From positions 1 to 64,000 of the forward strand of contig JALJPB010000018.1 in the NCBI GenBank assembly GCA_022969175.1: a DNA stretch of 64,000 nucleotides, given 5' to 3'. The number at the start of each line of letters is the position of its first letter. The stretch's first letter is position 1. Of this stretch, positions 1,511 to 3,152 are shown piece after piece. The translations under genes were made by a program, and so were the position numbers. Source of the DNA: Colwellia sp. (GTDB taxonomy: Bacteria > Pseudomonadota > Gammaproteobacteria > Enterobacterales > Alteromonadaceae). A model generated the notes under the pieces. The model worked only from the letters and a program-made list of their open reading frames with translations. It was not told where the DNA came from and did not search any database.

Positions 1511-1984
1511 TTGTTTCCTTGAAAAGTGTTTTATAAGTTTGGATTTTCAGAGCTATGCTATAGAAGAACTGTCACTATGTTTTCTAGCACTTAGCTTTTT
1601 AATTTAAATGTTAACGTAAATTATGGGCTAGGGATAAAAGAGTTGAAACAGTGACTAAAACTAGTGTTCTGTCATAAAGCCGCAAGTATAAGTGCCACAA
1701 CTTATGCATGTCCAGACGTATTTGATTTTGAGTTTTAACAATCTCTAGGCAATACAATTTTTGTTGTACGTTTTTTATCCGCATGAACAGTGTTAGCTCA
1801 TTTATTTGATTATACTGGTGTATGTAGATAAAAGTGGTTTAGGCAGCAAAAGCTAAATTTAAAATTTATGTGGTGATAAGTGGATGTTGTGATAATTATT
1901 TAGCGCAATGTAGATTTGTGCAGATAAATGAGGCAATATCAAATTTATAGCTAGTTATTGTTTAGGCACTTTATCGAGCTAACC
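1511..1984. other. Intergenic region between divergent genes
   Basis: AT-rich spacer separating the leftward lipoprotein operon from the rightward riboswitch and adenine deaminase unit. It must hold both promoters. I see no convincing extra gene or strong repeat here. Confidence 0.6.
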
Positions 1985-2051
1985 CTTGGTAAAACCTCAA
2001 TGATATAGATTGAAGGTCTCTACTAGGGACTAATAAATCCTGATTACCAAG
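1985..2051 (+). promoter_or_regulatory. Purine riboswitch aptamer, adenine type
   Basis: A three-helix junction can be drawn by hand. P1 is CTTGGTA 1985-1991 with TACCAAG 2045-2051. P2 is TCAAT 1997-2001 with ATTGA 2009-2013, capped by L2 GATATAG. J2/3 is GTCTCTACT (2016-2024). P3 is GGGA 2026-2029 with TCCT 2038-2041, capped by L3 CTAATAAA. All parts line up with the purine aptamer. The L2-L3 kissing pairs are covaried (A-U and G-C in place of G-C and G-C). The J3/1 residue equivalent to position 74 is T2044, the adenine-specifying base. A deviation: the residue equivalent to U22 is A. The downstream gene is adenine deaminase, as expected for an adenine sensor. Confidence 0.83.
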
Positions 2052-2110
2052 AGTTTAATCTATGAGTAGCGTTTTCTTTGTACGAATAATTATAATGAAA
2101 GATCAATACG

Positions 2111-2140
2111 CCCTAACCAAATTTTAATTATTGGGAGCTT
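2111..2140 (+). promoter_or_regulatory. Possible expression platform sequestering the ribosome-binding site
   Basis: The ribosome-binding site GGGAG (2133-2137) can pair through TTGG 2131-2134 with CCAA 2117-2120, or GGG with CCC 2111-2113. There is no T-run, which favours translational over transcriptional control, as in the Vibrio add switch. The alternative fold with the aptamer is inferred, not computed. Confidence 0.35.
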
Positions 2141-2144
2141 AGTC

Positions 2145-3152
2145 ATGAAAGAATTTATCCAGTCTTTACCTAAGATCGAACTCCATCTGCATATTGAAGG
2201 AACACTTGAGCCTGAATTAATGCTTGAGCTTTCAAAGCGTAATAATGTTCAAACGCCATTCAATTCAATTGCTGAGATTAGGGATGCTTATAATTTCCAT
2301 AATCTACAATCTTTTTTAGATATTTATTTCCAAGGAACTGATGTACTGATCAATGAGCAAGATTTTTTTGATCTAACTTGGGCTTATTTACTACGCTGCA
2401 AAGAAGATAACGTTGTTCATACCGAGGTATTTTTTGATCCGCAAGCACATACTGAACGTGGTATTAGCTTTGATACTGTCGTTAACGGTATTCATCAGGC
2501 GTTAGTAAAAGGCCGTACAGAACTGGGTATTAGCAGCAAACTCATTATGTGTTTCTTACGACATTTAGATGAGCAATCAGCCTTTATAACATTAGCGCAA
2601 GCTCAAGCTCATAAAGATAAAATTATCGCCGTAGGCTTGGACTCTACTGAAATTGGTCATCCAGCTAGTAAGTTTGAGAGGGTCTTTAAACAAGCCCTTG
2701 AACAGGGGTTTTTAACTGTCGCCCACGCCGGTGAAGAAGGATCAGCTGATAATATTCATCAAGCATTAGCTTTACTCAAGCTTTCGAGAGTCGATCATGG
2801 TGTTCGCTGCTCAGAAGATGCAGGCTTGATAGAGCAACTTATTACTGAGCGAATTCCACTTACCGTTTGTCCATTGTCTAATATTAAGTTAAAAATATTT
2901 GCATGTATGGCGCAGCATAATATTGTTGCTCTGCTTCGGCAGGGGGTTTGTGTAACGATTAACTCTGACGATCCTGCATATTTTGGTGGTTATATGACTG
3001 ATAATTTTTTGGCGGTAAATCAAGCACACCCGATGAATAAAACTGAAATAGCTCAATTTACTTTTAATGCTATCGAGGCCAGTTTTATTTCTCAAAATGA
3101 AAAAAACCGACTAACAACAGTGCTACAGTCATACTTAGATTTTAACCAATAG
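2145..3152 (+). CDS. Adenine deaminase (adenosine deaminase superfamily)
   Basis: 335 residues, a full-length member of the AMP/adenosine deaminase fold. It has the metal motif HLHIEG (His15, His17), HAGEEG near residue 195, the proton-shuttle segment, and SDDPAYFGGY near 277. The blocks FFDPQAHTERG, GLDSTEIGHP and LTVCPLSNIKL match the bacterial and fungal adenine aminohydrolase subgroup rather than true adenosine deaminase. The likely reaction is adenine to hypoxanthine plus ammonia in purine salvage, in the cytoplasm. The start follows GGGAGC by seven bases. The adenine riboswitch in its 5' leader supports the substrate assignment. It may be annotated as add in databases. Confidence 0.93.
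   Translation: MKEFIQSLPKIELHLHIEGTLEPELMLELSKRNNVQTPFNSIAEIRDAYNFHNLQSFLDIYFQGTDVLINEQDFFDLTWAYLLRCKEDNVVHTEVFFDPQAHTERGISFDTVVNGIHQALVKGRTELGISSKLIMCFLRHLDEQSAFITLAQAQAHKDKIIAVGLDSTEIGHPASKFERVFKQALEQGFLTVAHAGEEGSADNIHQALALLKLSRVDHGVRCSEDAGLIEQLITERIPLTVCPLSNIKLKIFACMAQHNIVALLRQGVCVTINSDDPAYFGGYMTDNFLAVNQAHPMNKTEIAQFTFNAIEASFISQNEKNRLTTVLQSYLDFNQ

Follow-up and report, generated by a model that had tools for sequence, protein, structure and literature searches.

In solved structures of purine riboswitches, the ligand is sandwiched between the A21-U75 and U22-A52 pairs (PMC7139962), and U22 is listed as universally conserved in a published comparison (PMC3764141). The stretch of DNA analysed here, 64,000 nucleotides from Colwellia sp. 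(the window), contains an aptamer of this family that carries A at position 22. This raises the question of whether such an RNA could still respond to adenine.

An adenine-type aptamer ahead of a deaminase gene

We found that the covariance model of the purine aptamer, RF00167, matched the plus strand of the window with 46.4 bits, above the gathering score of 37 (E = 1.4e-4 with all 4227 Rfam families searched against the entire window). Genome-wide, the match had an E value of 2.6e-6 and was the sole RF00167 match in the source genome, a 198-contig draft assembly that is 85.5% complete. With R1, a covariance model built in this analysis, the aptamer scored 53.1 bits. Using add-riboswitch numbering (window coordinate = position + 1970), we found all three helices: P1 (15-21/75-81), P2 (25-31/39-45) and P3 (54-59/67-72; Table 1). 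J2/3, GUCUCUAC, keeps U47, C50, U51 and A52, and both L2-L3 tertiary pairs are retained, 37-61 as a covaried A-U (2007/2031) and 38-60 as G-C. Position 74 is U, which assigns the aptamer to the adenine subtype. P2 contains a nonstandard C26.A44 pair (1996/2014), and P3 has two G.U wobbles. The conserved U22-A52 core pair is missing, as A22 faces an unaltered A52 (2022). The initial annotation had read several of these features from the sequence: a purine riboswitch of the adenine type, followed by an adenine-consuming deaminase gene, with three helices, a conserved J2/3, T at 2044, a covaried L2-L3 contact and a substitution at U22. All are present, and the covariance-model match above the cut-off agrees with that reading; the irregular pairs of P2 and P3 are additional to it. 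The aptamer belongs to RF00167 by descent and by model score; full binding competence does not follow from this membership.

Table 1. Features of the aptamer, leader and downstream gene in the window
Feature	Window position	Strand	Remarks
Purine riboswitch aptamer	1967-2066	+	RF00167 46.4 bits, R1 53.1 bits
P1 5' strand CUUGGUA, positions 15-21	1985-1991	+	C18 changed to G
A22 in J1/2	1992	+	U in 179/180 aptamers of the census
P2 hairpin, 25-31/39-45	1995-2015	+	C26.A44 broken, U27-A43 compensated
L2, within P2 hairpin	2002-2008	+	carries A37
J2/3 GUCUCUAC, positions 46-53	2016-2023	+	includes U47, U51, A52
P3 hairpin, 54-72	2024-2042	+	wobbles U54.G72 and G58.U68
L3, within P3 hairpin	2030-2036	+	U61 pairs with A37 of L2
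U74, specificity base	2044	+	adenine type
P1 3' strand UACCAAG, positions 75-81	2045-2051	+	G78 changed to C alongside C18G
Competing hairpin GGUCUCU-ACU-AGGGACU	2015-2031	+	predicted only; would sequester J2/3
Segment matching relatives' anti-P1 strand CUCUUUGUA	2073-2084	+	pairing with P1 3' strand weakened
Probable ribosome-binding site GGGAG	2133-2137	+	before ATG 2145; read from sequence
Adenosine/adenine deaminase family gene	2145-3152	+	335 aa, intact; closest solved structure 3ou8

The deaminase gene begins 79 nt beyond the end of the aptamer match, and its product belongs to the A_deaminase family (NCBIfam NF006850). It matched 3ou8 at 9e-118, compared with about 1e-30 for animal adenosine deaminases, which places it nearer the PA0148 type. 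We take 3ou8 to be PA0148, a protein described as having adenine deaminase activity; the label adenosine deaminase was given to 3ou8 by its depositors and to the family by NCBIfam. Some homologues of the gene carry in-frame stops (four in G375:C86:11004-11717 and one in G142:C20:2823-3707).

Like the Vibrio vulnificus add riboswitch (RF00167, PDB 1y26), the window aptamer has a three-way junction of P1-P3, U74, J2/3 and an L2-L3 contact, and both lie before an adenosine/adenine deaminase gene, with translational control likely. It differs from add in having A22 for U22, A37-U61 for G37-C61, a broken C26.A44 and predicted competing folds. What is new here is the A22 variant; the purine, add-type class itself is already known. 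Just 5' of P1, Colwellia leaders contain a dyad of the type AGCTAGTTATTG...AGTAACTAGCT, partly retained at window positions 1950-1984; this dyad may represent an additional stem or an operator site. Within that region of the window, the stretch UUUAUCGAG could alternatively pair with CUUGGUAAA of P1.

Position 22 and the substitution pattern among relatives

We gathered aptamers within the family and the order and also in a second class, built a covariance model without the window and aligned all matches. U22 was present in 179 of these 180 distinct sequences (one a 45-base fragment), which are a sample rather than all known purine riboswitches, and A22 was found in the window alone. U22 occurred together with A52 in 176 aptamers; the three other U22 aptamers, which lack A52, comprise two decayed Colwelliaceae leaders and the fragment, which does not include position 52. 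The A22/A52 combination was seen solely in the window, and because A52 is unchanged, we rejected covariation of A52 with A22. The initial annotation had asked whether A22 recurs in homologous leaders, and it did not among the 180 aptamers; the literature searched yielded no report of U22A in a purine riboswitch. Its further argument, that adenine riboswitches are the rarer type and this one therefore useful for specificity studies, is weakened, as adenine-type aptamers are common in the order of this bacterium. Guanine-type (C74) purine aptamers also occur in that order (L112, L115-L118, L122, L127, L137, L140 and L142).

The nearest protein relatives of the deaminase come from Colwellia, Psychromonas, Moritella and others, and the protein tree places the window among Colwellia, with a sister that lacks firm support. 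In most relatives we observed a riboswitch at the orthologous place. Leaders from Colwellia, Psychromonas and Moritella (L003-L007, L009, L011, L012, L014, L017 and L018) share with the window the orthologous gene, the position and the adenine type, and the Colwellia aptamers among them have the same length as that of the window; unlike the window, all have U22, scores of about 60-79 bits with RF00167 and a stronger anti-P1 strand. Other Colwelliaceae leaders of the same gene carry decayed aptamers in which core or helix positions are lost (L002, L010/L056, L061 and L062), and no recognisable aptamer was found before the deaminase gene in Colwelliaceae L008, L013 and L058. A52 is gone in L062 (2554-2652, minus strand) and L061 (1220-1318, minus strand), as is U74 in L062, and both appear to be decaying. 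Thalassotalea leaders (L058, L059 and L013) seemingly keep the gene-adjacent hairpin but have other sequence where the aptamer would be, perhaps from the end of the upstream gene. In Vibrio, the aptamers that precede a related deaminase gene (L020 1198-1310, L021 1199-1311 and L126) give matches that are 13 bases longer. The extra length apparently reflects a larger P2/L2 and may disrupt the usual L2-L3 contact. A TPP riboswitch lies near a deaminase homologue, on the opposite strand, in a Marinobacter MAG (L036 1249-1342, minus strand).

Compared with the canonical aptamer of Colwellia, that of the window differs at ten of 67 bases. At all ten sites, Psychromonas aptamers have the canonical letters, which places the changes in the window lineage; with both Colwellia and Psychromonas orthologues canonical, A22 is derived. 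Three pairs changed on both sides with pairing kept (18-78 from CG to GC, 27-43 from CG to UA, and the L2-L3 pair 37-61 from GC to AU), two were altered one-sidedly to G.U, 26-44 was broken and U22A was uncompensated. The A37-U61 contact was found in the window only; this contact is G-C in 119 of 123 aptamers and G-G in three. For ten substitutions placed at random, three or more compensated pairs with no more than one broken have a P of 5.5e-5 to 5.9e-4, depending on transition bias. In L002, the decayed leader for which pairs were counted in this way, four pairs are broken and none is compensated. The compensated pairs and their rarity under random substitution indicate that the structure was selected for during at least part of its divergence. 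This divergence was fast: the window differs from Colwellia aptamers at 10-13 positions at a protein distance of 0.18-0.20, whereas pairs of canonical aptamers at a protein distance of 0.15-0.20 differ at a mean of 3.2 (range 0-9). At equal protein distance, the window aptamer has thus changed at roughly three times the rate of its canonical relatives.

Predicted folding and mode of control

The minimum free energy fold predicted for the isolated window aptamer is non-native, and the three-way junction is not preferred. Instead, the preferred fold has an 8-bp P1 that includes A22-U74, together with a hairpin at 45-61 that engulfs J2/3. On energies computed for secondary structure at 37 °C, which ignore ligand, tertiary contacts and the cold habitat, the native fold of the isolated aptamer costs 4.5 kcal/mol in the window and 0.3-1.1 kcal/mol in canonical relatives. 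In the full leader, by contrast, the cost in the window (5.8 kcal/mol) falls within the canonical range of 0.7-6.9 kcal/mol, compared with 19.4 kcal/mol in L002. The probability of the 22-74 pair behaves similarly: it is 0.74 in the isolated window aptamer but 0 when position 22 is U, and 0.09 in the full leader. The anti-P1 duplex is also weaker, at -4.3 kcal/mol in the window versus -9.8 kcal/mol in relatives.

No intrinsic terminator was found between the aptamer and the gene, the lone terminator-like site being inside the gene at 2929, and we therefore rejected transcription termination as the mode of control. In Psychromonas and Moritella leaders, formation of P1 and pairing of its 3' strand with CUCUUUGUA are predicted to be mutually exclusive. 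With the P1-off state computed under soft constraints, a crude folding measure predicted a more open ribosome site with P1 in those leaders and no shift in Colwellia or the window. As this measure shows no shift, the case for the window rests on orthology and on the add riboswitch, a regulator of translation (PMC5847336); on these grounds translational control is likely.

Proposed weakening of the adenine response, or possible tolerance of A22

We think it an even call whether the window contains a real add-type translational adenine riboswitch with a weakened or lost response to adenine, and this is the reading we prefer. It treats the locus as an orthologue of the add-type switch of Colwellia and Psychromonas. 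We observed the sequence itself, the pattern of substitutions, its uniqueness among the sampled aptamers and the accelerated divergence, and from these we infer the loss of affinity and the effect on expression. In the ancestral state, as in the canonical aptamers of relatives, adenine in the junction would have stabilised P1, and the predicted alternative pairings suggest that a stable P1 kept its 3' strand off the downstream CUCUUUGUA, favouring ribosome access. In the window lineage, the change of U22 to A would then have abolished Watson-Crick pairing of positions 22 and 52 over the ligand. Because the ligand lies between A21-U75 and U22-A52 and is contacted by position 22 through the ribose, U22A would remove the Watson-Crick lid and offer position 22 a new partner in U74, the ligand-recognising base, and thereby could extend P1 into the ligand site. 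A22, the weakened P2 and the new hairpin competing for J2/3 should together lower adenine affinity; as anti-P1 pairing is also weakened, the result would probably be poor switching or adenine-independent expression. The initial annotation had proposed that the core is rearranged or the pairing scheme differs. This is plausible in that A22 is predicted to be able to pair with U74, although A52 has not changed to match.

The near-invariance of U22 in the census, with A22/A52 in the window alone, favours this reading, as does the position of the ligand site next to U22-A52 in solved structures (PMC7139962). The isolated-aptamer predictions (the non-native minimum, its cost and the 22-74 pairing), the weaker anti-P1 duplex, the accelerated divergence and the aptamers that are decayed or unrecognisable before the same gene in other Colwelliaceae all point in the same direction. 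Against it stand the three compensated pairs with a single broken one, including the unique A37-U61, the retention of the other ligand-contacting bases (U47, U51 and U74), and the full leader, in which the cost is canonical and the 22-74 pair rare; the energies also disregard ligand, tertiary contacts and the cold habitat.

Much of this opposing evidence supports a close rival, a working adenine riboswitch that tolerates A22, which is quite possible if short of probable. Here A22 and A52 would stack or pair non-canonically, the ribose contact of position 22 would be kept and affinity would be retuned. The compensation seen in P1, in P2 and at the L2-L3 contact, the retained U47, U51, U74 and J2/3, a full-leader folding cost no higher than in some relatives and the intact downstream gene are consistent with it, as is the observation that the ligand contacts the ribose 2'-OH of residue 22 (PMC6649850; PMC3119931). 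It has to contend with U22 in every other natural aptamer in the sample bar none, the competing folds, the broken C26.A44 and the faster divergence.

A more specific version of the preferred reading, a weakened or lost response, has A22 itself play the part of the ligand. In this unlikely case, A22 would stack on A21-U75, pair with U74 and replace adenine, P1 would form unliganded and the deaminase would be expressed constitutively from a natural ligand-independent aptamer. A pbuE aptamer with U65C, from Delfosse et al. 2010, is reportedly a laboratory mutant in which an internal residue of J2/3 mimics the ligand. The two share the idea that an RNA residue fills the ligand site by pairing with 74; the residue in the window, unlike that in pbuE U65C, is a natural one in J1/2, and a putative mimic.

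An assembly or sequencing error at 1992 is improbable. The genome is a draft of 198 contigs that is 85.5% complete, and it was the one genome of its genus in the collection compared. Nine more changes in the same 67 bases, coherent and largely compensatory, argue that the region is truly divergent, although a single-base error at 1992 would be compatible with a divergent region. We consider it slightly more doubtful still that the RNA now binds a different ligand, with A22 as a specificity change. Changes in the core gave rise to other classes of purine riboswitch, and the altered core residue adjoins the ligand; however, U74, U51 and U47 are unaltered and the downstream gene is still of the adenine-deaminase type. 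There is no sign of a new ligand or a new class, and the divergence, which the initial annotation had thought useful for specificity studies, fits weakened or lost function at least as well as altered specificity. Chance resemblance, despite a score below those of relatives, can be dismissed with near certainty given the orthologous position, the 57 of 67 core bases as in relatives' aptamers and the score above the cut-off.

U22 has been treated as universal in purine riboswitches, and a natural A22 aptamer directly tests the role of that base, whether it lies in pairing with A52 or in staying unable to pair with 74. The value of the window aptamer as such a test is that it has otherwise kept most helices and re-made the loop-loop contact. 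If A22 does serve as its own ligand, the absence of A22 from other U74 aptamers would partly reflect selection against self-pairing. Before a single orthologous gene, the Colwelliaceae leaders also span a natural gradation from an intact riboswitch to a lost one.
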